NCBI GenBank assembly: GCA_015698285.1
Contig: CP048685.1
Location: 2,046,001-2,110,000 of the forward strand
Length of the DNA: 64,000 nt
DNA from: Candidatus Nitronauta litoralis
Lineage (GTDB): Bacteria > Nitrospinota > Nitrospinia > Nitrospinales > Nitrospinaceae
Reading direction: 5' to 3'
Of the stretch, positions 37,481 through 51,436 are shown piece after piece; position 1 is the stretch's first letter; each line of letters opens with the position of its first letter. The translations under genes and the position numbers were made by a program. Below the pieces are notes generated by a model that saw only the letters and a program-made list of their open reading frames with translations, was not told where the DNA came from and searched no databases.

Positions 37481-38629
37481 GTGATAAAAAGACAGGATAT
37501 AGAAAAACTGGAAAAGGAGATCCTGGCACCGTTTGCCGTTAAAAGCGGAGAAAGCCGGGGACGCCAGAACCGGGAAAAAGAACATTCCTACAGGACCCGC
37601 TTCCAGCGCGACCGCGACCGGGTGATTCATTGTTCCGCTTTTCGCCGGCTGGAATATAAAACCCAGGTGTTTGTGTATCATGAGGGAGATTATTACCGCA
37701 CCCGCCTGACCCACTCGCTTGAAGTCGCGCAAATCGCCCGTTCTATCTGTAAATCTCTCCAGCTAAATGAAGACCTGGCGGAAGCGATTGCCTTGTCGCA
37801 TGATCTGGGGCATCCTCCTTTTGGTCACACAGGGCAAAAAGTCCTCAACCGGTTGATGAAAGATCACGGTGGTTTCGAACACAATCGGCAAAGCCTGCGG
37901 ATCGTCAAACTTCTGGAAAAACGTTATCCGCAATTTGAAGGCCTCAATCTGACCTGGGAGGTTTTGGAAGGAATCAGCAAACATTCAAGGGATGAGGATA
38001 ATCCACTGATCAAACCAAAACAGAACCGCTTTCCCTCACTTGAGGCACAGGTGGCGGACTTTGCTGATGGCATAGCCTATAACGCCCATGACCTCGACGA
38101 CGGCATCACTTCCGGTTTGCTTGATCCGGTACAACTCCGATCGGTAGCCCTCTGGCGGGAAAATGAAAAACGCCTGGACAAGGAATTCGCCAACCTGGAT
38201 CTGAAAATGAAAAAGTACCAGATTGTTCGGAGCATCATCAACGACCTCATCACTGATTTCCGGAAAGCGACACTGAAAAATATTAAGAAACACTCCATAG
38301 ATTCAGTTCAGGCCGTGCGGACCAGTTCTATCCGGCTGGCGGGCTTTGGTAAGGAGGTAGGGGAAAAAAATGCAGAGCTGAAGCAATTCCTGAATAAAAA
38401 GATGTATCAACACCCCAAGGTCCGTCGAATGGAATTCAAGGCGGAACTGCATCTCAATAAAATTTTTGAAGCTTACAAAAGGTTTCCGGACCTTGTGCCG
38501 GAAGATGCTTCTCCAAAGGGGGAGGGGGACTCTATAGAGCGCCGTATTTGCGATTACATCTCGGGGATGACCGACCGATTCTGCATTCGTGAGTATAAAA
38601 GCCTGTTCGGGCCGGAAGAAAAGGATTAA
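37481..38629 (+). CDS. Deoxyguanosinetriphosphate triphosphohydrolase-like protein
   Basis: 382 residues. HD-domain dNTPase: SRGRQNREKEHSYRTRFQRDRDRVIHCSAFRRLEYKTQVFV, RTRLTHSLEVAQIAR (first His), ALSHDLGHPPFGHTGQKVLN (HD and HxxxxH) and ADGIAYNAHDLDDG (final Asp). Hydrolyses dGTP or other dNTPs to the nucleoside and triphosphate. Start GTG 37481. Such enzymes also act in phage defence by dNTP depletion, but there is no linked defence gene on this strand; housekeeping is the default. Confidence 0.92.
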   Translation: MIKRQDIEKLEKEILAPFAVKSGESRGRQNREKEHSYRTRFQRDRDRVIHCSAFRRLEYKTQVFVYHEGDYYRTRLTHSLEVAQIARSICKSLQLNEDLAEAIALSHDLGHPPFGHTGQKVLNRLMKDHGGFEHNRQSLRIVKLLEKRYPQFEGLNLTWEVLEGISKHSRDEDNPLIKPKQNRFPSLEAQVADFADGIAYNAHDLDDGITSGLLDPVQLRSVALWRENEKRLDKEFANLDLKMKKYQIVRSIINDLITDFRKATLKNIKKHSIDSVQAVRTSSIRLAGFGKEVGEKNAELKQFLNKKMYQHPKVRRMEFKAELHLNKIFEAYKRFPDLVPEDASPKGEGDSIERRICDYISGMTDRFCIREYKSLFGPEEKD

Positions 38630-39185: not shown

Positions 39186-39475
39186 TTAAAGGATTTGATC
39201 GTATAAATCAGCCCACTGAGGATTCATCTCTTCAATCAGCTCCAGTTTTTTTCTCCTTGATCCTGATTTAATCCGTTTCTCGCGTGATATAGCATTTTCC
39301 ATAGTGTCGAATGTTTCAAAATAAACAAATAACTTGCAACCGTATCTTTTTGTAAAACCAGGTACTATACCCTGTTTATATGTTCAAAAATGCGCTTTAT
39401 TAGGTCTCCTGTCACGCCCGTATATAAAGTACCATTTCGTTTGTTTGTCATTATATAAATGGCAGGTTGTTTCAT
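39186..39475 (-). pseudogene. Frameshifted GIY-YIG nuclease (URI family)
   Basis: Minus-strand reading starts at ATG 39475 with MKQPAIYIMTNKRNGTLYTG (the GIY-YIG core as YIM-LYTG), then VTGDLIKRIFEH. Near 39377-39381 two extra bases (an AT duplication) shift the frame into a stop. Skipping them restores HKQGIVPGFTKRYGCKLFV..., MENAISREKRIK and NPQWADLYDQIL, ending at TAA 39186-39188. That gives 95 residues, the usual size of small URI-type GIY-YIG proteins. The gene is bounded closely on both sides by copies of the dispersed repeat. Confidence 0.85.
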
Positions 39476-39477
39476 TG

Positions 39478-39516
39478 TTCTGGATTGCTTCGTCACTTTA
39501 GTTCCTCGCAATGACG
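39478..39516 (-). repeat. Dispersed repeat half-element, inverted, copy 3
   Basis: CTGGATTGCTTCGTCACTTT... ending CTCGCAATGACG is the reverse of the CGTCATTGCGAG-type half-element. It begins two bases before the pseudogene start codon and faces copy 39559-39598, making an inverted pair of about 120 bp. Confidence 0.8.
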
Positions 39517-39558
39517 AAAAAATAGTTTGTCCTAGGATTCCCAACCAGATTGCGTTCC

Positions 39559-39598
39559 TGTCATCGCGAGCGACCAGAGGGAGCGCGGCGATCCAGAA
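39559..39598 (+). repeat. Dispersed repeat half-element, copy 4
   Basis: TGTCATCGCGAGCGACCAG... through GGCGATCCAGAA. It ends 31 bases past the stop of the TIR-PAP2 gene and so bounds the three-gene operon on its downstream side. Confidence 0.8.
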
Positions 39599-39629
39599 TA
39601 TATCATTGGCACTGAAGGTGGTCGGTTTT

Positions 39630-40808
39630 TCAATCAATCTCCAAAAACGAATACAGTTTCTCAAAGGTCGCGCTGAAGTATTCGTGTGAATACGGCACAC
39701 CATTGTGACGCACCAACTCGCGCAACTCCTCCGGCAATTCCTTCGAAGGAGGAAATTCGAATCCTTCCACCATCAAAGGCACAATGTTCCGCTTCATCCT
39801 GATGGCGTGCCCGATCTCCTTGCGCAACCAGTCTCCGGGCATCTGGCATCGATCCAGCGCACCCGGAGAAAGTATGACCACAAAATTGGTAGTCGATTCA
39901 ATTTCCTGTAACAGGCGCTGATCAAAATGTTCGGCTCCCAGGTCGTCCACATCCAGAAAACACGGCACCCCACGTCGTTCCAGTTCCGAGTGCACCACCC
40001 GCGCCAGTTCAGATCCACGCTCCCTTCGGTAACTGATAAACACCCGGTTGCCTTTCGATTTATCCAGTGGAACAGATGACGTTGGTTTTGCATCAACCTC
40101 CGGCAACTCTTCTTCCTGGGGCTCGGGGTAACGGCGGTCCACAACCGTTGCCAATCCGAAAGCCAGCACCGCCATCACACTACCCATGGCGAGGTCCGGC
40201 AGCCAGTGAATCCCAAGTGCAAAAGTGGACAGCACAACGGTGAGAGCGAGACAGGCAATGCTATGTCGGAATCTCAAGCGAAAACGGTAGGCGGTGATTA
40301 GCGTGATGATGGAAAATGAAACGTGTACACTCGGGAAACAATTGTCGAGGCCACTGATCGGGCGGATCATTTCAATCAAATGGGTCGATAGCAAATCCGA
40401 CCATAGTGTGGCACTCGCCGCTGGATAAGCCCAGCGTTCCGGAACGGGAAAGAAGAGAAAGAACGGCAGACTGAGCAGGTAGTTTCCAGTGAGCGCCAGG
40501 GTGAACACGCGAAACGGCCCTACCTGTTTGCGACGCACCAGAGCAGCGGCCGTTCCCAGCAGAAGCACAGGAAACACCACAAAATAGGACAGGGAAAACC
40601 CGCCAATGGCTTTCATGGAAGGTGGTGCCTGATTCTGGAATCTTATCTTGCCTTCCAGTTGATCAAACGCCTGGGCTATCCGATACCCTTTTTCAAAAGT
40701 TCCCGGACCCTTCAGCATCTCTTCCATTTTGGTCTCGGCGAAATTAAAAAGGAACAGCGCGATCAGAATTCCGGTGAGGCCAATGCGGGTTGTGAGTGAT
40801 TTTTCCAT
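39630..40808 (-). CDS. PAP2-TIR fusion: membrane phosphatase-like protein with C-terminal TIR domain
   Basis: 392 residues. N-terminal half: about six membrane segments with PAP2/Aur1-type lipid phosphatase motifs, IRP (148-150), FPSVHV (PSxH, His162) and STFALGIHWLPD (S194...H201-x3-D205), all intact. After a Pro/Glu linker (227-252) comes a TIR domain (255-392): RVFISYRRERG, VPCFLDVDDLG, FVVILSPGALDRC and DWLRKEIGHAI, where Glu331 sits at the NADase catalytic position. Last gene of the operon; its ATG directly follows the stop of the preceding gene. Likely effector: TIR cuts NAD or makes a signal at the membrane. The fusion is one I do not recognise as a described defence protein. Confidence 0.88.
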   Translation of the reverse strand: MEKSLTTRIGLTGILIALFLFNFAETKMEEMLKGPGTFEKGYRIAQAFDQLEGKIRFQNQAPPSMKAIGGFSLSYFVVFPVLLLGTAAALVRRKQVGPFRVFTLALTGNYLLSLPFFLFFPVPERWAYPAASATLWSDLLSTHLIEMIRPISGLDNCFPSVHVSFSIITLITAYRFRLRFRHSIACLALTVVLSTFALGIHWLPDLAMGSVMAVLAFGLATVVDRRYPEPQEEELPEVDAKPTSSVPLDKSKGNRVFISYRRERGSELARVVHSELERRGVPCFLDVDDLGAEHFDQRLLQEIESTTNFVVILSPGALDRCQMPGDWLRKEIGHAIRMKRNIVPLMVEGFEFPPSKELPEELRELVRHNGVPYSHEYFSATFEKLYSFLEID

Positions 40809-42428
40809 TTACGCGTCTTTCTTCCTGGAAAAAAATGCGGCTTTGAGACTGAACAACGCTGCCAGGGAAAACAGGCCGATCATGCCCAGGGTCGCCACTT
40901 TGAGGACGCGACCTCCGGGGTTGGGTCGTACCAGAAAAACACGGTAGGCACTGTTGCCCATCGGATCAAAACTGTAATGATTATCTGCACCTTTGGGAAA
41001 ACCATCCCCTTCCAGTCGGAAAGAATGGAATCCAGATTCGGCAACGGAGATATCGAAAGGTTTGTCACTCGTGTAGGCATTGCTGCTCTGGTCGCTCCAG
41101 GTGATTTTCATGCCCTTCATCCGGGTACCCTCGGGAATATTAAAATCCACATCGCGTAAAACCCGGGCCGCCGCGTCATCAAACGGCCATATGTAACGTA
41201 TCCGGTGCATGCGGTTGGTAATCTCCGAACCGATGCGCGTGACCAGGCTTTCGAGATCATTGCGTTTGAAGCTGATATGAAATTTCTGCTGAGGCAGTTC
41301 CGAATCGATAAACTCCGATGTGATGATGAGTGAGTCATCGTGGGTCTGGTGCAGAGTCCAGAGCACGTCGAACTGTTTGTGGAAATCCTCGTCGTATAAA
41401 ATAAATTCTGTGCCGGACAAACGCACTGCCTGTCTGGCTGCTTCCAGATAACGTGGTTCGATGGTTTCGCCATCGGCATGAGGTTTTCGAATCTTTACCG
41501 GTACGGGATTGGGCGGAACCTTGGCCAGCCACCTCAGAGAAGCCAGGGCACGCCTTGCCTCGGGTGTTTTGTTAAAATCCACCCAGGTTTGAAAATCCCC
41601 GATGTTGATTTCCTGTGGACCCAGTTTGTTGATCGTTTCCCGCAAGCCGTCCTTCAATTCGTCCGGGGAATTTCTTGTGACCACGAGCAAATCGTTGGGC
41701 AGCCCCTGTGGCAATTTCAAAAAGTTGAGGTCCGGATCCTGATCGAATTTTACCTTGGTGCCGTCCCACACAGCGGCAAAATCCGCCTGGCCTTCTTTGA
41801 CTTTTCGCACCAGACTCGAACTGCCGCTGGCATCCTCGGGGCGCCTGGCGTTGATTGTGATGAACTTCCGATCATTGGCCGAGCTGCCCGGCACTGAAAA
41901 AATATCGTGACGGGCAAAATAGAGAGACGGGAGGAAGTAACTCGAGGTGCTGAATTTGTTGTGATAGATAAACTGGCTCGGGACAGGGCTTTCCCGCAGT
42001 GTTTTCACAAATCCGTCGAGGTCGTTTTCTGAGAAAGTTGTTTTCCTCGTGACCAGATAGGAGTGATAAATGAACTTTCCTGTTTTCTTACTGTGGTAGG
42101 TGGCCAGGATATCCAGCTCAGCCCCCAGCATTTCTGCAACAACATAAACGTAGGGTGTAACGCGGGCGATCATGGGGCCCTGTTCATTTTCATCCCAATC
42201 CACCAGGGTGTGAATCGCCGCGCCGTATTCCTGATCGCGTGTCTCGAAGTGAAGTGACTGTTGTCCGCGGATGAATTCACGCAACTTCTGGTCGGCTTCC
42301 TGCGTTTCCGGATCCAGCGCCACCCCGAGAAAGGTGACGGAACCATGTTCGTCGGCAACAACGGGAGCCGTCACCCCCAGAGGCATCAAGAGACACACGG
42401 CTATAAAGATAAGGAAACGAAAAATCAT
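40809..42428 (-). CDS. PhnD-like periplasmic-binding protein with C-terminal membrane anchor
   Basis: 539 residues from ATG 42428, one base after the stop of the upstream gene with AAGGAA just before; a longer frame to 42527 would overlap that gene. Signal peptide (MIFRFLIFIAVCLLMPLG), then a bilobed domain of the phosphate/phosphonate-binding (PhnD-like) type (about 35-300, with SSSLVRKVKEGQADFAAVWDGTKVK), a second region of mixed strands (300-480), and a C-terminal membrane helix (VATLGMIGLFSLAALFSLKAAFF). No ABC permease or ATPase is linked, so it is probably a sensor or adaptor, not a transporter part. Middle gene of the TIR/cyclase operon. Confidence 0.75.
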   Translation of the reverse strand: MIFRFLIFIAVCLLMPLGVTAPVVADEHGSVTFLGVALDPETQEADQKLREFIRGQQSLHFETRDQEYGAAIHTLVDWDENEQGPMIARVTPYVYVVAEMLGAELDILATYHSKKTGKFIYHSYLVTRKTTFSENDLDGFVKTLRESPVPSQFIYHNKFSTSSYFLPSLYFARHDIFSVPGSSANDRKFITINARRPEDASGSSSLVRKVKEGQADFAAVWDGTKVKFDQDPDLNFLKLPQGLPNDLLVVTRNSPDELKDGLRETINKLGPQEINIGDFQTWVDFNKTPEARRALASLRWLAKVPPNPVPVKIRKPHADGETIEPRYLEAARQAVRLSGTEFILYDEDFHKQFDVLWTLHQTHDDSLIITSEFIDSELPQQKFHISFKRNDLESLVTRIGSEITNRMHRIRYIWPFDDAAARVLRDVDFNIPEGTRMKGMKITWSDQSSNAYTSDKPFDISVAESGFHSFRLEGDGFPKGADNHYSFDPMGNSAYRVFLVRPNPGGRVLKVATLGMIGLFSLAALFSLKAAFFSRKKDA

Positions 42429-42429
42429 T

Positions 42430-44217
42430 CTATAGTTCCTTAAGATGATACATACGGATGCGACCAAAACCTTTTGGTAGTGGATGGTTCCCAACATATT
42501 CGCAACGGTATCCGCCTTCGCCTTCAAGTGAGATGAGAGCAGCGAAGGGTTCGGTTACATAAACAGATCCCGGTGGTGTGCACGGTTCCAGCCTTGCCGT
42601 CTGGTTGACGTGTTTGCCAAAGAAATCGGGTTTGCCCAGCACGGGATTATCCGTCTGGAAAATGGGGCCGACATGCGCCGCGACGCGCAGACCGAGGTTG
42701 GTTGGAAGGCCCAGTTCAAAATAGTCCCAGTCGTTGAACATCCCCGCCAGTTCAAGCGCAAGATTGGCTGCAGTCGGAACCTCGTCGATCACCAGATAAG
42801 CCGCGTCTCCCCAGGTGTTGATGTATTGAATATGTTCTGTGTGTTTGGTCTTGATCGTTTCCAGAGCGTTGAACCAGCGCGCCATGAAGATGGCAATCTG
42901 GCGCTCGTTCATCGCACTGAAGCCTTTCACGTCGGCAAAAATCATGGCCTTCATCTGGCGTTGCAGTCCAGGTGGCGCCGGTTCGATCTTGATGGTGGGT
43001 TTCACACCTTCACTGCGTGGCGGCGGCACCGGGACGATGAGATTTTCCAGACCCAGATCGTTCCAGCGGCGCATGGCTCCTGAAGTGCCGGCCGGATTGT
43101 CCACATTCAACTGGTTCCACACCGCGATCTGGTAAGCGCGCGAACCGAGCGTCTGGCTTCTCAGATGGGCCAGTCCCATACCTTGCCGCGAGCAGGCTTC
43201 AAATAACAAATCGTGACCGGTGATGGCTTCTTCCACAATCTGCGTGACCGAACTGGCCCGGCATAAAATGGCTTCGTAACGTTTCACCCAGGATTCCCCA
43301 CCGGGTGCAACCGAGATCCGTTTGAACTCTTCCCGACCAAACGGCAGAATGATATTCAACTCACCCTGCGATTCCAGCACCGCTTCGGCCACCAGAATAT
43401 CCGCTCCGCAGGCGAGAGAGCCATAGGCAACGCGCACCCGGTGCTGATCAAGCAGCGCGGTGATATGAGTCCGGATTGCGTCTTCATCCGTCGGGTCCAT
43501 GCCCGGTGATTTCCCAATCCCGTGCACCATCTGGCCGGTGTAGGTGATGACAGTCGGCGGCCGGATCGCTTCCAGCGTGTCCAGCGTTATTCCGCGCTTT
43601 TTGCAGATACGGTTTAATTGTTGATAGGTGGTGCTGAGGTTCCCCAGATCCCAAGGACATATTTCCCGCGCTTCCTGAAGCCGACCAACGGCTTCATCCG
43701 TTCGGCCCAGAAGCAAGGCCGCCTCGGCTTGCGTGGCCCTGAGGTAAAACCCGTTTATTCCGGAGCCATCGGGATCTTTCGCACAAAGTTCGAGAACCGT
43801 TTCCGCCTGTTTTTTTGAAGCCACTTCATCCCCTACCAGAAGCGATAGAGTCGCCGCGTTGATGAGGGGGTAATAGGACGGATTCTTGTTGTACGCTTCC
43901 ATGTAAAGTTCGCGGCTGCGTTCACCCAGAACCTTTTGATTTTCCGGATTTCGCGAGTTGTTGCACAGGTCTTTATAAAGACGGGCCAGCAGCGATAAAA
44001 ACCGGGTTTCCTCTGGCAGGCGTTCGTGGAAGGTTTCGTACAGTTCCAGAGCCTGCCGGGTGGCCCCGCTTCGGGCCAGTGCCAGGAGACCGAGATAGAC
44101 CAGGTCGGAGTTGAACTCCCCTTTCTCCAGTGGTTTCTGGATGCAGTCGTAAACACCGAAATAATCACCCTTTTCCAGTAACTGGTTGGCGTTTTGTATT
44201 AAATGATCCAGAGCCAT
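42430..44217 (-). CDS. TPR-SLOG-class III nucleotide cyclase
   Basis: 595 residues. N-terminal TPR-like region of the DUF4071/TRAFs-binding type (1-210), a SLOG-like Rossmann domain (about 221-300: TVITYTGQMVHGIG, VAYGSLACGADILVAEAVLE, LNIILPFGREEFKR), a linker, and a C-terminal class III cyclase (about 422-560). Metal aspartates are present (D429 in FADVKGFS, D471 in NTWGD), as are the transition-state Asn538 and Arg542 (VNQTARLE) and specificity Asp531. The specificity Lys of adenylate cyclases, expected before TxGD, is Asn467. It should make a cyclic nucleotide of uncertain base. First gene of the operon, so the likely sensor/signal producer. Confidence 0.85.
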   Translation of the reverse strand: MALDHLIQNANQLLEKGDYFGVYDCIQKPLEKGEFNSDLVYLGLLALARSGATRQALELYETFHERLPEETRFLSLLARLYKDLCNNSRNPENQKVLGERSRELYMEAYNKNPSYYPLINAATLSLLVGDEVASKKQAETVLELCAKDPDGSGINGFYLRATQAEAALLLGRTDEAVGRLQEAREICPWDLGNLSTTYQQLNRICKKRGITLDTLEAIRPPTVITYTGQMVHGIGKSPGMDPTDEDAIRTHITALLDQHRVRVAYGSLACGADILVAEAVLESQGELNIILPFGREEFKRISVAPGGESWVKRYEAILCRASSVTQIVEEAITGHDLLFEACSRQGMGLAHLRSQTLGSRAYQIAVWNQLNVDNPAGTSGAMRRWNDLGLENLIVPVPPPRSEGVKPTIKIEPAPPGLQRQMKAMIFADVKGFSAMNERQIAIFMARWFNALETIKTKHTEHIQYINTWGDAAYLVIDEVPTAANLALELAGMFNDWDYFELGLPTNLGLRVAAHVGPIFQTDNPVLGKPDFFGKHVNQTARLEPCTPPGSVYVTEPFAALISLEGEGGYRCEYVGNHPLPKGFGRIRMYHLKEL

Positions 44218-44343
44218 GGCACAACGAGCAGGGGTTTAAGAAAGAGAGCCTGCACATTGTAACGTATTTGGGGACTATAGGATGACAGGATCAGGTTCCA
44301 GCACTCTATTTTTTATGAGAGAATCGGGTCGGAGTTGGTTCTT

Positions 44344-44453
44344 CGTCATTGCGAGGAATCAGAGTGACGAAGCAATCCAGCCGGGCAAACGCCCGGAGTA
44401 AACTGGTGAAAACCTCTGGATCGCCACGCTCCTTTTAGTCGCTCGCGATGACG
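44344..44453. repeat. Dispersed palindromic repeat, copy 5 (full element)
   Basis: CGTCATTGCGAG (44344-44355) and CTCGCGATGACG (44442-44453) are inverted ends; inside, AAGCAATCCAG faces CTGGATCGCC around a GC-rich centre (CCGGGCAAACGCCCGG). The element is about 110 bp, MITE-like, and bounds the TIR/cyclase operon on its upstream side. It has no coding capacity. The rest of 44218-44876 shows no gene. Confidence 0.85.
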
Positions 44454-44730
44454 GACTCTATGTTCTTGCGAGTGGAAAAATCTTATCTTTGAATTCGATT
44501 TTTGGGTAAGTAAGGGCCTCGTTTAAGAAAGGCCCCATTGAGGTGCCCTGAAACAATTTTAAAGGAGAGTAGATGGCTCCTTTTCTCCTCCCCTTGAAAG
44601 GATATCTTTGGATAAGTGCATTTTGAATGAAAACAATAAGGAGGTCACACTTCGACAGGAAAAGGACAAGCACTCCTGTTCAAGAACCGCTACTCGCGTT
44701 CTTGAATGTGACACATTAACTCAAAGCACT

Positions 44731-45699: not shown

Positions 45700-45780
45700 T
45701 TATCCCTCAAAACTTTCAAAACGATATCCTGCCTCATGCACCGTTCAGATAATTTCAGGTTGTTGGGGATCTTTTTCGAT
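45700..45780 (-). pseudogene. Remnant of an OmpR-type response regulator C-terminus
   Basis: Reading the minus strand gives IEKDPQQPEII-stop-TVHEAGYRFESFEG-stop, matching the last 26 residues of the response regulator at 51949-52650 (19 of 26 residues identical; one replaced by a stop). The first third of it (45755-45780) is read in another frame as the end of the PepSY gene. It implies a past duplication or deletion joining locus B to a two-component gene. Confidence 0.75.
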
Positions 45781-46951
45781 ATCGTGTATCAGGGTCTCCT
45801 GGGAAGTCGGCACGCAGGCGCGCTTTGCGTTTACGCTGCCAGACTATGAGTCCGGTGACATAAAGATGGATCGGGGCAAATCCAGCCAGGAACATCAGGA
45901 CACGACCGGGCATTCCGAGCGCTTCTCCATTGTGGATGGGGAACATCCAGGACAGCAAAGTGTCTCTGCTGCTCATGGTCTGTGGCTCCTGAGTTTTCCG
46001 AATTTCACCATTGTAAGCTGATATCCAAAGCTGGGTGCTGCCGCTGGTTTGGCGTATCTCGCCGGGCTGGCGCATGATGATGCGGAAAGCGGCTTCGGTA
46101 GAGGATGGGAAATAAATACGCTGTAGTTTCGCCCGGGGAAAAAAATCGCGGGCAATAGAAGCGACCTCGTGGATATTGATTTTTTGACCTCCGCCTGTCT
46201 CTATTTTGGATATACCGGATGGAGGCAATTGCTCAACGGGAAGAATCATGCTGAGGGCGGATTTCATGTATTGGGGGAAAATCATGGATATCCCGGAGAA
46301 GGCCGCCACCACAAGTACGATGCAGGCATAGGCGCCGACCGTTTTGTGCAGGTCGTAAATTTGTCGGACAGGGCTGGAACGATGCCTGAATGTAAATGCC
46401 TGCAGGAATTTTCCAGGTTGCCGCCACCACAGAACAACCCCGGACACAACCGAACAGATTAAAAGCAGGCCTATCACACCTACGATGGTTTCCCCACGCT
46501 TACCTGACAGCAGGGTGAAATGCATCTTATATAGACAACTCATCAGGTAGCCGCCCCACCGCCGTTGCCCTAACACTTCGGCCGTAAAAGGGTTGACCAT
46601 CACATCCAGCAAAACCGTTTGATCTTCTTTGGGAAGAGTAAACCGGATTTTAAAGGGCGCTCGCAAATGCGGAGGAAAATACAGCCTGGCTGGTTTTGCC
46701 GAAACAGGCACCGCCTTTTGTGCCGCCGCTGTGATTTCAGTGAGCCGGGCGTATTCTCCACCGGGCTCAACGGTCAGCAAGGCGGGGTTCAGAAGTTCAT
46801 CGATGCCCTTGTAAAAGACCAGGGCACTTCCCGTCAGACCGCTGAAAGCAAACATTAAGCCGACAAACAGACCGAGATATAGATGAATCCTGAACCACAA
46901 GCTGTGGCGGGGGGCAGGAGCGGTTCGTTTTTTCCGGATGGATGTCTTCAA
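45755..46951 (-). CDS. PepSY-associated transmembrane protein (locus B)
   Basis: 398 residues, paralogue of 6416-7546. Membrane segments: RIHLYLGLFVGLMFAFSGLTGSALVFY near the start, GVIGLLLICSVVSGVVLWW and TVGAYACIVLVVAAFSGISMIF in the middle and RVLMFLAGFAPIHLYVTGLIVW near the end. PepSY-type periplasmic parts lie between them. Family members act with siderophore receptors, some as ferric reductases. Its last residues (RYRKRSPTT) are coded within the response-regulator remnant, so the native C-terminus may have been replaced. Encoded 120 nt after the receptor of locus B. Confidence 0.85.
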   Translation of the reverse strand: MKTSIRKKRTAPAPRHSLWFRIHLYLGLFVGLMFAFSGLTGSALVFYKGIDELLNPALLTVEPGGEYARLTEITAAAQKAVPVSAKPARLYFPPHLRAPFKIRFTLPKEDQTVLLDVMVNPFTAEVLGQRRWGGYLMSCLYKMHFTLLSGKRGETIVGVIGLLLICSVVSGVVLWWRQPGKFLQAFTFRHRSSPVRQIYDLHKTVGAYACIVLVVAAFSGISMIFPQYMKSALSMILPVEQLPPSGISKIETGGGQKINIHEVASIARDFFPRAKLQRIYFPSSTEAAFRIIMRQPGEIRQTSGSTQLWISAYNGEIRKTQEPQTMSSRDTLLSWMFPIHNGEALGMPGRVLMFLAGFAPIHLYVTGLIVWQRKRKARLRADFPGDPDTRYRKRSPTT

Positions 46952-47071
46952 AACTCATACACGTTGTTCAATATCTCTGACACTCCGCCTTGGCTTTCCT
47001 GTTTGCCGCATGCGCCTCCCTTCTTTCCTTGAGTGGAACTCCAATGGATCGAAGGCCATGCATTCATCAGG

Positions 47072-49480
47072 TCACCATTTAAATGAATAAGTGGCGCTGA
47101 TGGAACGGCCCGATCCCGCTGAGTAGCGATCATTGAAGTCGTATATCTGGGAAATGTTCGGGAAATACTGCTCATCAAACAGGTTCTTGATGCCAACACT
47201 CAGTGACCCTGTTTCGAAATTCAAGGTGCTGACCAAATCCACCAATACATAATCGTCCACAGCGCCTCTGCCAAATCCGGGCTGCCCTTTGAATCGGTCC
47301 CGGTTGCCGGAGTACAGGAATTGCAGACGGTTACGCCAGTTAGAAAGAGTTTGATTCTCGATGTAACTGGTCAGCTTTAACGGGGAAATGCGGTTGCCCA
47401 ACATAAAGGAATCAAAGTTTCCATCATTATCGGAATCCAGTTCGCCTTCCATCCAGGACAAAGTTCCCCCTATACCCCACTTGTCAAACGGTTGTGCATT
47501 TACAGAAACTTCCAGGCCATAAACCCGTTCGGGAATACGCAAGAGCCCGATGAGCACGTTCGGAGAAGTCGGACTGGTGAGGGTGGAACCCAGATCGGAA
47601 TCGCTATAGAACAGGGATATATCCCCCTGTACATTGGCCCAGGACCCGCGAGCCCCCACCTGGTAGGTATCGACGACTTGCGCCTTTGGCCGGATATTGT
47701 CCACCGAAGCTCCAGCAGAACCAACGGTACGCAGGACCCGGCCAATTTCAGGCACGGTGAAGCCCTGGGAGAAGGACGCGTACAGGTCAACCTCTTCGGT
47801 CAAATTATACACCGCGCCCGCATTAAACACCTCGCGCCCGTAGTCCAGGTTCCCTCCCACGACATCGAAGTTGCCTACGGTGGTGAAATTGTCCACGGCA
47901 AACAGGATCGTTTCATACCGGACCCCGCCATGAAGCGTCAGGGATTCGCCCAGGAAAACCTCGGTCTGCGCGAACGGACCCACGGTCCACTGCTCCATTT
48001 CAGGCGTGAAAAACCTTCCATCTTCCATGGGCTGTGATGTTTCTTCATAGACCACATCCACTCCCCAAAGCAGGCGTCCAAAAGAGAATAGCGGTGTTTC
48101 AATATCCAGACGTCCACCATACCGCTGCGAATCAATAAAAGTCTGTCCGCCGGTCGTGTGAGTGGGAGGCGGGAAATATCCATAGCGCGTCCAGAAATCC
48201 CGGTAATAGAGCTGAGTCTTAACAATACTTCCCATCACATCTGTATTACGGTAGTTGAGATTGAGTTGAAGATTCTCAGTTCCCGTATCCTCTCCCAGCG
48301 GAACGCCTGGGACTGCCGGGGTCTTTACCACACCGGTCAAACCCACTCCCCTTGAAAAATTCGTTTCCTGTTCGAGTTTAAAAGAGTTGGCAGAAAGTTC
48401 AAACCGTTGCTGTTCATCCAGGTCGTATCCCAGTTTTCCGAACAGGTTATAGGAGTCGGAATCCGCTATACCTCCCTGGCCGTTGGGGTCAGGAGAAATC
48501 CGGTCACCCTCGCCATCAAAAAATCCGCCGGTCTGTTCACCCGTCGCGCTCAAAATATAGTCAAGTTGTTCATGACGGCCTTCCACACGCTGAGTCAGCC
48601 GTTCGCTGGCACTTTCGCCAACCTCGGAAGGCTGAAAGCGGACTGTAAAATCTGTAGTGAATTTCGCAGGCCCTTCCTCTGCCCTTTTTGTGATGATATT
48701 GATAATACCCCCTGTGCCCCCCAGACCATACACGCTGGTTGAACCACGTAGCACCTCCACCCGTTCGATGGCCGCGGGATCTATGGTCCGTAAGTTTCGC
48801 TGGCCGTTTCGAAGGGGGAGGGTCTGTGGCACGCCATCAATCAGGACAAACAGGTTTTGTCCCCGCAAAGTTTGTCCCACTTCGGTATTGCCTTCGGTGC
48901 TGGTCCCAAGACCCGGCACGGTTTTGGCCAGGATGTCTCCCAGGTCCGTCGTCAGGTCCATTTGCCGCTGGATTTGCTCACGTCTGACAATGGTTACACT
49001 TTGAGGCGTGTCAATAAGGTTACCAACACTCCGGGTTACCCCAACTTCTATGTTCCCTAATGATATGGAATCAGCCGCTTTTGTCAGGGTGACCGTATCG
49101 CGAGCCGTGAATCGGAAATCGAGGTCGGTTCCATCCAGGATGAACTCCAGGGCTTCCCTGGGCGTGTAGGTCCCCTGGACACCCTGCGTCTTCAACCCGG
49201 TCGTCATTTTAGCGTCGTATAGAAGTTGGAGGTCCGCGGTTTCGCCGAACCTGGAAAGCGCGGAGGAAAGGTCCTGTGGAAGAATATTGAATGGCAACTT
49301 CCTGCTTTCAACGGATGGAACAGTCCCCGTGTTGGAGTCAGCATTATTAGGACCTTCCAGTGCGTAGGCTGTCGTGGTCATGATCAGCCCCAAAAATAAA
49401 AACTGAATGAGGCGCACGGATTGTGACCAGATTGGGTTGTGCCCTCCGGACCTGGCATTAAACACAGACTGTTCCTTCAT
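47072..49480 (-). CDS. TonB-dependent siderophore receptor with STN domain (locus B)
   Basis: About 802 residues from ATG 49480 (a longer frame to 49570 adds 30 residues with no signal character). Signal segment (VRLIQFLFLGLIMTTTAYA), STN domain (about 60-135: KLPFNILPQDLSSALSRFGETADLQLLYDAKM), plug (TPQSVTIVRREQIQRQMDLTTDL, VLIDGVPQTLPLRNGQRN, ERVEVLRGSTSVYGLGGTGGIINIITKR), then the barrel ending YSFKW. The STN domain indicates signalling to the FecR encoded next upstream. Distinct from receptor A in length and plug wording, so probably a different ligand. Confidence 0.93.
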   Translation of the reverse strand: MKEQSVFNARSGGHNPIWSQSVRLIQFLFLGLIMTTTAYALEGPNNADSNTGTVPSVESRKLPFNILPQDLSSALSRFGETADLQLLYDAKMTTGLKTQGVQGTYTPREALEFILDGTDLDFRFTARDTVTLTKAADSISLGNIEVGVTRSVGNLIDTPQSVTIVRREQIQRQMDLTTDLGDILAKTVPGLGTSTEGNTEVGQTLRGQNLFVLIDGVPQTLPLRNGQRNLRTIDPAAIERVEVLRGSTSVYGLGGTGGIINIITKRAEEGPAKFTTDFTVRFQPSEVGESASERLTQRVEGRHEQLDYILSATGEQTGGFFDGEGDRISPDPNGQGGIADSDSYNLFGKLGYDLDEQQRFELSANSFKLEQETNFSRGVGLTGVVKTPAVPGVPLGEDTGTENLQLNLNYRNTDVMGSIVKTQLYYRDFWTRYGYFPPPTHTTGGQTFIDSQRYGGRLDIETPLFSFGRLLWGVDVVYEETSQPMEDGRFFTPEMEQWTVGPFAQTEVFLGESLTLHGGVRYETILFAVDNFTTVGNFDVVGGNLDYGREVFNAGAVYNLTEEVDLYASFSQGFTVPEIGRVLRTVGSAGASVDNIRPKAQVVDTYQVGARGSWANVQGDISLFYSDSDLGSTLTSPTSPNVLIGLLRIPERVYGLEVSVNAQPFDKWGIGGTLSWMEGELDSDNDGNFDSFMLGNRISPLKLTSYIENQTLSNWRNRLQFLYSGNRDRFKGQPGFGRGAVDDYVLVDLVSTLNFETGSLSVGIKNLFDEQYFPNISQIYDFNDRYSAGSGRSISATYSFKW

Positions 49481-49606
49481 CGTTCTATTTACCCCCGGTA
49501 AAAATGAAATTAATTGGGTTACAACAATAGAACGAAAAAAGAACCCTCCCCCCTGACCTAGAGGCAGCATTTTTTTTCTTGAAAGTCTCGATTAATTAAT
49601 GGATCT

Positions 49607-49624
49607 CACTAATATAACGATGGG
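49607..49624 (-). promoter_or_regulatory. Possible ECF promoter before receptor B
   Basis: On the minus strand CCCATCGTTATATTAGTG resembles the locus A motif (CCCACTCGTCTATAT) with small gaps, keeping the CGT and TATATT parts. It lies 127 nt before the receptor B start. Weaker than the two locus A copies. The 49481-49754 stretch otherwise shows no gene. Confidence 0.35.
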
Positions 49625-49754
49625 AAAGCCTGGTTCCCTGACTTAAGAAGTGATTATTTCTGGAAACGGATTTTTGATTTGCGCTTTTTCGCTTTTAGAA
49701 GCAGAAAAGATTGTGATTGTCCTGTCAGTAGGTGCAGATTTTTCGGGGAGGGAA

Positions 49755-50768
49755 TTAAAGGGCAGGAGCCGGGGAGTCGGTTTGATCTATAAAGACTAAA
49801 TAACTTGTCACACGATGAACGCGGATTGGCAATGTACTTTGTAATGCCCGTAGGACGGCATCGGGATCGCTGATGTCGAAAATTCCGCTGACCCTTGATG
49901 TTCGAAGTTTCTCATCAAGAATGAGGATAACCCCTTTGCGGTAGCGATTAACCTCATTGATTACTTCTCCCAGTTGCTGATTGTCGAACGCTAGTTTTCC
50001 ACGACGCCAGATGGCGATTTGACCACGATCAACCGATTCAACTTCGGAAAGACCTGTATTGGAACCATAATGAATCTTCTGTCCGGGAACCAGGTTTACC
50101 TTCGAAAAATCACGGGTAACCTGCACTTCGCTATCGAGCACCTTCACTATCACTTGATCCAGCTTTTTGCGCACCTCAAATGCTGTACCCAGAGCCCGGA
50201 CGGTACCCTCCCCGGCAACCACTTCGAATGGCCGTTTCTTGTCCTCTGAAACTACAAACAGGGCACCGCCCCGGTCCAGCACCAGCCGCCTTTGTTGAGG
50301 AGAAAAATCAACAGACAGGGCTGAGTCGGCATCCAGATAAACTTTCGAACCATCGGCCAGGTTCAGCGTCTTCAACTCACCGGGATTCGTGTAAAAATCA
50401 CTGGCGAGATGATCCCAGGCGTCAGACAACCAGAAGCTGCCACCTAAAAAGAGCAACAACATGGCAACCAGGGAGGTTCCCCAACGAGCCATACCACCCT
50501 TATGTAATTTGTCCTGTGGAAATACGGGAGGCCGACTTACGGTTTTTTTTCTGGAACGCTTATGACCCGGCCCGGTCTTGATCCCATCAAGATCTTCCCA
50601 GACAGCTCGGATTCCCTCGTACTCAAGTGCATGGAGGGGGCTGCTAGAGCGCCAGGCTTCAAATTGACGGCGAGTGTCTTCTGTGGCATCACCGCTATGG
50701 AGCCGGGCGAACCACCTGACCGCCTCATCAGAGACCGATTTGGATTCGTCGAGAGGATTGTGTTTCAT
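49755..50768 (-). CDS. FecR family anti-sigma regulator (locus B)
   Basis: 337 residues, same architecture as 2559-3608: N-terminal cytoplasmic region with EAVRWFARLHSGDATEDTRRQFEAWRSSSPLHALEY, one membrane helix (WGTSLVAMLLLFLGGSFWL, about 95-113), FecR domain (TNPGELKTLNLADGSKVYLDADSAL, RRLVLDRGGALFVVSEDKKRPFEV) and an STN-like C-terminal part. It links receptor B to the sigma encoded 122 nt upstream. Confidence 0.9.
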   Translation of the reverse strand: MKHNPLDESKSVSDEAVRWFARLHSGDATEDTRRQFEAWRSSSPLHALEYEGIRAVWEDLDGIKTGPGHKRSRKKTVSRPPVFPQDKLHKGGMARWGTSLVAMLLLFLGGSFWLSDAWDHLASDFYTNPGELKTLNLADGSKVYLDADSALSVDFSPQQRRLVLDRGGALFVVSEDKKRPFEVVAGEGTVRALGTAFEVRKKLDQVIVKVLDSEVQVTRDFSKVNLVPGQKIHYGSNTGLSEVESVDRGQIAIWRRGKLAFDNQQLGEVINEVNRYRKGVILILDEKLRTSRVSGIFDISDPDAVLRALQSTLPIRVHRVTSYLVFIDQTDSPAPAL

Positions 50769-50890
50769 TCAGGTCTTGTTAGTTGATAAAGTGCTGGAAT
50801 ATTCATTAGCTATTCCAATATGCTTGTCACGGGTTCGGTGACTATTATCAAAAAGACGTTATAGAGTGAATTATACCTTACATTGTTTTA

Positions 50891-51436
50891 TTAATTCACC
50901 TGACGCAGACGGTCCCTGCAATGAGCAAGGCCGCGAATAATATGTTTTTCCACCATATTTCGGGAAATATTCAGACGGTCTGCAATTTCCGCATGAGTGA
51001 AGGCCTCAAACTTGTGGAGCAAAAACACTTCCCGGCACCGCGGTGGCAACTCTTCGACCGCTTTACGCAAAATCGCCAGTCGCTGCTGGTAATCAATCAC
51101 CCGGTCAGGCAGGGGCATGCCACTGGAGATGTTCTCAGGAACCGCCTTCGCACTGATATGCCGGGTGCGCCTTTTTTCCGAGCGGAGATGGTCAATAGCG
51201 AGGTTGGCCGCCATTTTGAACAGATAAGAACGTGGATGATCGACCACCGGCTGCTTGGAAAGCTGGCTTACACGCAACCAGGTCTCCTGGACGACATCTT
51301 CGGCGAGCAATCGGCAACCGTATTGGCGGGTCAGAAACGCTTTTATGTCTTCGTAACTTGCAACCAGAACGTCAAGTAATTTGGAATCATAATATCGATA
51401 GGGCATGGTATCGGAGAAATCTCCCCGTTCGCGCAT
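50891..51436 (-). CDS. FecI-family ECF sigma factor (locus B)
   Basis: 181 residues with sigma-2 (LLAEDVVQETWLRVSQL, HPRSYLFKMAANLAIDHLRSEKRR) and sigma-4 (LPPRCREVFLLHKFEAFTHAEIADRLNISRNMVEKHI). The latter ends with the MVEKH wording common in FecI proteins. A second in-frame ATG at 51406 could be the real start; neither has a clear ribosome-binding site. A strong Fur box lies 37 nt upstream, so it is iron-repressed. Confidence 0.92.
   Translation of the reverse strand: MRERGDFSDTMPYRYYDSKLLDVLVASYEDIKAFLTRQYGCRLLAEDVVQETWLRVSQLSKQPVVDHPRSYLFKMAANLAIDHLRSEKRRTRHISAKAVPENISSGMPLPDRVIDYQQRLAILRKAVEELPPRCREVFLLHKFEAFTHAEIADRLNISRNMVEKHIIRGLAHCRDRLRQVN

Follow-up and report, generated by a model that had tools for sequence, protein, structure and literature searches.

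A TPR-S, SLOG and class III cyclase protein of Candidatus Nitronauta litoralis as a possible part of a Thoeris-like TIR-cyclase module

What does a class III nucleotidyl cyclase make, and what would switch it on, when the lysine that normally selects ATP is replaced by an asparagine? The question is raised by P0001, a protein encoded in a 64,000-nucleotide stretch of the Candidatus Nitronauta litoralis genome (Nitrospinaceae; contig CP048685.1, positions 2,046,001 to 2,110,000; the whole stretch is called the window below), in which a TPR-S domain, a SLOG-like domain and a cyclase domain are joined in one chain, and whose gene is followed by genes for a PhnD-like binding protein (P0002) and a PAP2-TIR fusion (P0003). 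We tentatively read P0001 as the nucleotide-sensing, messenger-making half of a Thoeris-like TIR-cyclase module, in which an NAD+ derivative made by the TIR protein would gate the cyclase; we place this reading somewhat short of an even chance.

The full-length AlphaFold model of P0001, obtained with a 36-sequence alignment, has a mean predicted local distance difference test score (pLDDT) of 90.3 and a predicted template modelling score (pTM) of 0.89. Pfam assigns the protein to the TPR-S family (52.9 bits in PF20308, against a cut-off of 27.6), and this domain is set within a helical repeat region (residues 2-208, helices in the model). The middle domain had no match in Pfam, and its sequence matched none of the PDB sequences; modelled alone it reached a pLDDT of 91.7, and the best PDB match of that model is YpsA (2nx2; template modelling (TM) scores of 0.63 and 0.69, E=1.6e-7), followed by DprA and LOG enzymes and, weakly, by TRPM2 and TRPM4. 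As modelled, then, the middle domain is a SLOG fold with YpsA nearest to it. The C-terminal part matches PF00211 in Pfam (residues 424-593, E=3e-10), and Foldseek aligns it to adenylyl and guanylyl cyclase structures where single cyclase domains mostly give a TMt of 0.6-0.84. We found no model in PADLOC or NCBIfam that names a cyclase protein of this type, and a search of viral structures returned generic cyclase, SLOG-like and TPR matches only. Some relatives are built differently: one (L037:4045-7731) is fused to an ABC transporter, two (L056 and L058) carry an N-terminal RyR domain, and there are SLOG-like relatives without a cyclase (L148, L151-L156, L170-L179), possibly a wider family of sensor domains.

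For residue comparisons we drew an unbiased sample, in which a profile built from the SLOG domain alone (A2) was run against whole genomes of Alphaproteobacteria, Cyanobacteria and Verrucomicrobiota and the cyclase parts of the matches were then read; this gave 29 SLOG-anchored cyclases, leaving out L163 (a misaligned non-cyclase) and L168 (frame broken at the motif). The metal-binding pair D429 and D471 is invariant among relatives, as are R542, R511 and K582, the transition-state Arg, the triphosphate Arg and the Lys, respectively (roles as in PMC2576301), and all five are kept in 29/29 of the sample. Because these residues are invariant, catalysis by P0001 is likely, and the protein is very probably an active class III cyclase as predicted from its residues; an inactive cyclase is unlikely on the same grounds. 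The initial annotation had argued from D429, D471, N538 and R542 that catalysis is possible: the residues are there and activity is likely, and only N538 has to be dropped as evidence, since that position varies among the 29 cyclases (S in 14, N in 8, T in 7) and is not a conserved catalytic feature. Ma1120 itself does without the transition-state Asn (PMC4215837), as do further established cyclases (PMC4886424).

The asparagine at the adenine-Lys position, also pointed out in that annotation, was confirmed when the residues were checked in the minus-strand open reading frame (ORF). N467 sits at pocket position D2-4, within NTWGD, the same site as the Lys of K-T-x-G-D cyclases (Lys296 in Rv1625c; PMC4174876). 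NTWGD is found in the homologues within the phylum and, of a set of 80 loci from other bacteria, in all whose cyclase part is complete; that set was drawn with two search patterns, one of them NTWGD itself, and it is unusable as a test of Asn467 for this reason. Of the 29 SLOG-anchored cyclases, 25 have N at position 467, two have E (L141, L147), one has K (L136) and one has R (L149); W469 is kept in 28. As far as these sequences tell, the clade retains an unusual N-T-W pocket together with a complete catalytic set, and we reject the idea that Asn467 is an oddity of P0001 alone. The second base-contact position, 531, is D in the genus itself, E in the sister Nitrospinaceae genera and otherwise mostly N.

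The exceptions at position 467 form a natural base-specificity panel: L136 (KTWGD), L141 (ESWGD), L147 (ETWGD), L149 (RTTGD) and a Caballeronia plasmid relative, L215 (ETAGD). With N, K, E and R occurring naturally at one base-reading residue and the catalytic residues unchanged, base selection can be tested directly. The Caballeronia relative reads AETAGDG, with Glu at the 467 site, and has no TIR in the immediate upstream gene. We rejected plasmid mobility of the module: only eight plasmid records match, two of them over most of the protein.

What does the pocket say about the product? P0001 has N467-D531, and thus neither the Lys-Asp (or Thr/Ser) base pair of canonical adenylyl cyclases nor the Glu-Cys pair of guanylyl cyclases. 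Asn467 by itself implies little, and the substitution does not show a product other than cyclic AMP (cAMP) or cyclic GMP (cGMP); class III cyclases, natural as well as engineered, stay active with non-canonical base residues, and the K101E variant of Ma1120, for example, still makes cAMP, with ~40% of the adenylyl cyclase activity retained at pH 9 (PMC4215837). An Asp or Glu at position 531 can act as hydrogen-bond acceptor for an amino group, and would therefore fit adenine or cytosine over guanine or uracil. In order of likelihood, we expect from these residues that P0001 makes cAMP, then cyclic CMP (cCMP) or a mixture, then others. The earlier proposal that the product may be neither cAMP nor cGMP is thus unsupported as stated, Asn being the rule in the clade and D/E531 suiting A or C; the comparison with Pycsar pockets that went with it does not help, since Pycsar cyclases use other residues at the Asn467 site (R142 in EaPycC, which makes cCMP; D94 in BcPycC; K104 in AnPycC; PMC11224242).

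In Nitrospinaceae the cyclase gene is the first of an operon of three tightly packed genes (Table 1). The likely ATG start of P0002 lies 1 nt past the stop codon of P0001, and P0003 begins at the base directly after the end of P0002. P0002 has an N-terminal signal or transmembrane segment and a C-terminal transmembrane segment, and its identity among Nitrospinaceae loci is 45-81%. P0002 is found in 11/11 Nitrospinaceae loci that reach that far and P0003 in 10/10, always in the same gene order, and a TIR gene is linked to the cyclase in all loci long enough to tell; the outer neighbours of the operon vary between genera. The cyclase gene occurs in every Nitrospinaceae genome searched (in one as a contig-end fragment only), and the remaining families of the phylum are without it, except for genome G013; it behaves as a core gene of the family and is not patchy. 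In one sister genus (g2; L028, L030, L031, L035) the His of the PAP2 motif FPSVH is lost (FPSLPAAF), with the GIHW-PD motif and the TIR Glu both retained. Because Glu331 is invariant and this His is not, the TIR domain seems to be under stronger constraint than the lipid-phosphatase site, and the sequence suggests that the PAP2 domain of that genus may serve solely as a sensor or anchor.

Table 1. Positions of the cyclase operon, its domains and the two base-contact codons in the window
Feature	Position in window	Strand	Remarks
P0001, TPR-S - SLOG - class III cyclase	42430..44217	(-)	595 aa; ATG start at 44217
TPR-S domain (Pfam PF20308)	43843..44106	(-)	aa 38-125; E=5.9e-14
SLOG-like Rossmannoid domain	43030..43557	(-)	aa ~221-396; fold match
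Class III nucleotidyl cyclase domain	42433..42966	(-)	aa 418-595; Foldseek to adenylyl/guanylyl cyclase structures
Asn467 codon, site of adenine-specifying Lys	42817..42819	(-)	Asn in 25/29 of the SLOG-anchored sample
Asp531 codon, second base-contact position	42625..42627	(-)	E in sister genera, mostly N elsewhere
P0002, membrane-tethered PhnD-like periplasmic binding protein	40809..42428	(-)	PF12974 E=5.4e-10
P0003, PAP2-TIR fusion	39630..40808	(-)	PF13676 E=8e-14, PF14378 E=1.3e-7
PAP2 membrane domain of P0003	40143..40595	(-)	FPSVH and GIHWLPD motifs present
TIR domain of P0003	39633..40049	(-)	invariant catalytic-type Glu331 (DWLRKE)

Linkage to a TIR gene recurs well beyond this family. 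A TIR gene lies directly downstream of the cyclase gene in Opitutia (L054, L059; TIR-FGE), in a deltaproteobacterium (L058) and in a member of the Bacteriovoracaceae (L076; TIR with a transmembrane segment). A TIR ORF was found at most 150 bp from the cyclase ORF in 22/80 of the pattern-derived loci and in 6/33 SLOG-anchored or regional loci, not all of which are phylogenetically independent. The arrangement differs between groups, with TIR genes that are downstream and overlapping, upstream and overlapping (sphingomonads), convergent at 3-58 bp (Phenylobacterium) or divergent (Verrucomicrobiota). In six unrelated genomes every TIR_2 gene is a neighbour of the cyclase, namely in the Nitronauta genome itself (G000, 1/1) and in G061 (1/1), G064 (2/2), G066 (1/1), G954 (1/1) and G095 (1/1), and genomes with many TIR genes (G063 with 11, G067 with 7, G955 with 4) have one near the cyclase, G068 having one elsewhere; these genomes were picked as carriers of the family, mostly with a nearby TIR already seen, and the counts gauge whether the neighbour is the sole TIR, not the frequency of linkage. 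No cyclic-nucleotide-binding domain (CNBD) was detected in P0003 or in the other TIR partners scanned; they carry PAP2, FGE, transmembrane, TPR, YARHG, SH3 or WD40 parts. TIR domains are typically NAD+-cleaving enzymes.

Because the scanned TIR partners lack a CNBD, the cyclase product is unlikely to be the ligand of the TIR protein; for this reason, and because P0001 has a YpsA-type SLOG domain and TPR-S, we prefer a relay that runs from TIR through an NAD+ derivative and SLOG/TPR-S to the cyclase. In such a relay, an envelope or infection cue would activate the TIR protein (in Nitrospinaceae the membrane PAP2-TIR, which would probably take its input from the membrane-tethered P0002), and the TIR domain would cleave NAD+ to a signal of the ADP-ribose or cyclic ADP-ribose (cADPR) type; the SLOG domain of P0001, with the TPR-S scaffold, would bind this signal, upon which two cyclase domains would form an active dimer and produce a cyclic mononucleotide; cAMP is the likeliest product, ahead of cCMP or another. 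We infer the direction of the relay, the identity of both signals and the biological role, in stress or defence signalling. Burroughs and Aravind (J Bacteriol, 2020) reportedly proposed that the TPR scaffold senses NAD+-derived signals. The SLOG domain had been suggested at the outset as a possible sensor of an ADP-ribose-like nucleotide, a view that gains strength from the YpsA-group fold match and the TIR neighbours. Some YpsA-like SLOGs are cADPR sensors (PMC9503650), and the SLOG of ThsA binds, and is switched by, TIR-made 3'cADPR (PMC11204291).

Several points weigh against this relay. Linkage is not obligatory, with no TIR nearby in many Magnetospirillum relatives, in G013 and in several cyanobacteria; the sensor role of the SLOG domain is deduced from a structural match whose TM-score is moderate (0.63-0.69); the relay does not account for the PhnD-like and PAP2 parts; and the cyclase gene is present in all Nitrospinaceae genomes searched, a distribution that defence systems seldom show. 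Since the operon looks like core equipment in these marine nitrite oxidisers, it may serve physiology and not phage defence. The core status of the gene would also suit an ordinary adenylyl cyclase with a degenerate pocket, whose cAMP is read by CRP-type proteins and for which the TIR protein is a binding partner or scaffold and not the source of a nucleotide signal: the full catalytic set is kept, D/E531 is compatible with adenine, cyclases with non-canonical pockets can still produce cAMP (PMC4215837), and the genome itself has 15 CNBD regions. We nevertheless consider this rather unlikely, as Asn and Trp of NTW are conserved so strongly that one particular pocket seems to be under selection, and as linkage to TIR domains with intact Glu recurs across phyla.

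Those intact TIR domains would also fit the opposite order, as in Pycsar, in which the cyclase would respond to the cue first and its cyclic nucleotide would turn on the TIR protein, leading to NAD+ depletion. The pairing of a class III cyclase with TIR is the same as in PycC/PycTIR (PMC11224242), and the SLOG and TPR parts could be the sensors of the cue. However, the partners carry their various other parts where a CNBD would be expected, and nothing in the PADLOC library, including the PycC model PDLC00734, matches P0001 at E<=0.1 (one relative matches PycC, at E=0.004 only), so that we regard this order as unlikely. Partly independent of the direction of the relay is the possibility that the N-T-W pocket yields a non-canonical product (cCMP, cyclic UMP or a mixture). 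Pycsar clades alter D2-4, and D2-2, a Trp in P0001, is Gln in the cCMP-making EaPycC (PMC11224242); in addition, with N in 25/29, the rare K, E and R relatives look like specificity switches. On the other hand, Asn is found at D2-4 in no PycC clade described in PMC11224242, P0001 lacks the determinants by which PycC is reported to differ from ordinary cyclases, the Phe at D1-2 that it shares with EaPycC and AnPycC is common in class III, and position 531 is variable; a product of this kind is distinctly improbable.

If the TIR-to-cyclase relay is true, NAD+-derived ADP-ribose signals and cyclic mononucleotides would be joined in one short operon, two immune or stress signalling currencies would be linked, and PF20308 TPR-S and YpsA-like SLOG domains would gain a testable role. 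A wider version, which we find doubtful, is a widespread module with two messengers in series, where SLOG/TPR-S reads the TIR signal and the N-T-W-G-D cyclase emits the second messenger, a Thoeris-type input coupled to a Pycsar-type output.

Upstream of the operon (window 45755-51436) are genes for a sigma factor, a FecR-like protein, a TonB-dependent receptor and a PepSY-type protein, judging by their sequences an apparent iron-siderophore uptake cluster. Downstream, in two genomes of the genus, is an HD + HD_assoc phosphohydrolase (dGTPase-like; window 37481-38629 and L027:11152-12297). With these neighbours, and no other defence genes seen in the window, we rejected a defence-island context. 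A truncated GIY-YIG-like ORF lies downstream of the operon (window 39365-39703, minus strand) and a dispersed repeat of the GTCATTGCGAGG...GACGAAGCAATCC type upstream of it (window about 44340-44460); both have the look of small mobile repeats on either side of the operon.

Comparison with known systems places the module closest to Thoeris. The mycobacterial cyclases Rv1900c, Rv0386 and Ma1120 share the class III fold (1ybt and Ma1120 are among the Foldseek matches) and show that activity tolerates non-canonical residues at substrate or transition-state positions, but they lack SLOG, TPR-S and a TIR partner. In TPR-S conflict-system proteins (PF20308), the TPR-S scaffold is likewise joined to nucleotide-handling domains and linked to TIR; part of the module may already be in the literature, and none of the papers searched describes the Nitrospinaceae operon with its PhnD-like and PAP2-TIR members. 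Similarly, Pycsar (PycC with PycTIR or PycTM) has a class III cyclase with an altered base pocket beside a TIR protein, but the N-T-W-G-D pocket fits no described PycC clade (PMC11224242) and P0001 carries the extra TPR-S and SLOG domains; we rejected membership on two features, a PycC-type cyclase and a TIR or transmembrane effector with a CNBD. Thoeris pairs a TIR protein (ThsB) with a SLOG-bearing protein (ThsA, SIR2-SLOG), and here too a TIR gene with a catalytic-type Glu is adjacent to the gene for a SLOG-bearing protein, the SLOG being a likely sensor of a TIR-made NAD+ derivative. In place of SIR2, or of a transmembrane-macro effector, P0001 has a class III cyclase, along with the TPR-S scaffold, and the Nitrospinaceae operon adds the PhnD-like binding protein and the PAP2 membrane domain. 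Because a cyclase fills the effector slot, the module is not Thoeris as defined; by analogy, it would work most like a Thoeris system with a cyclase output.
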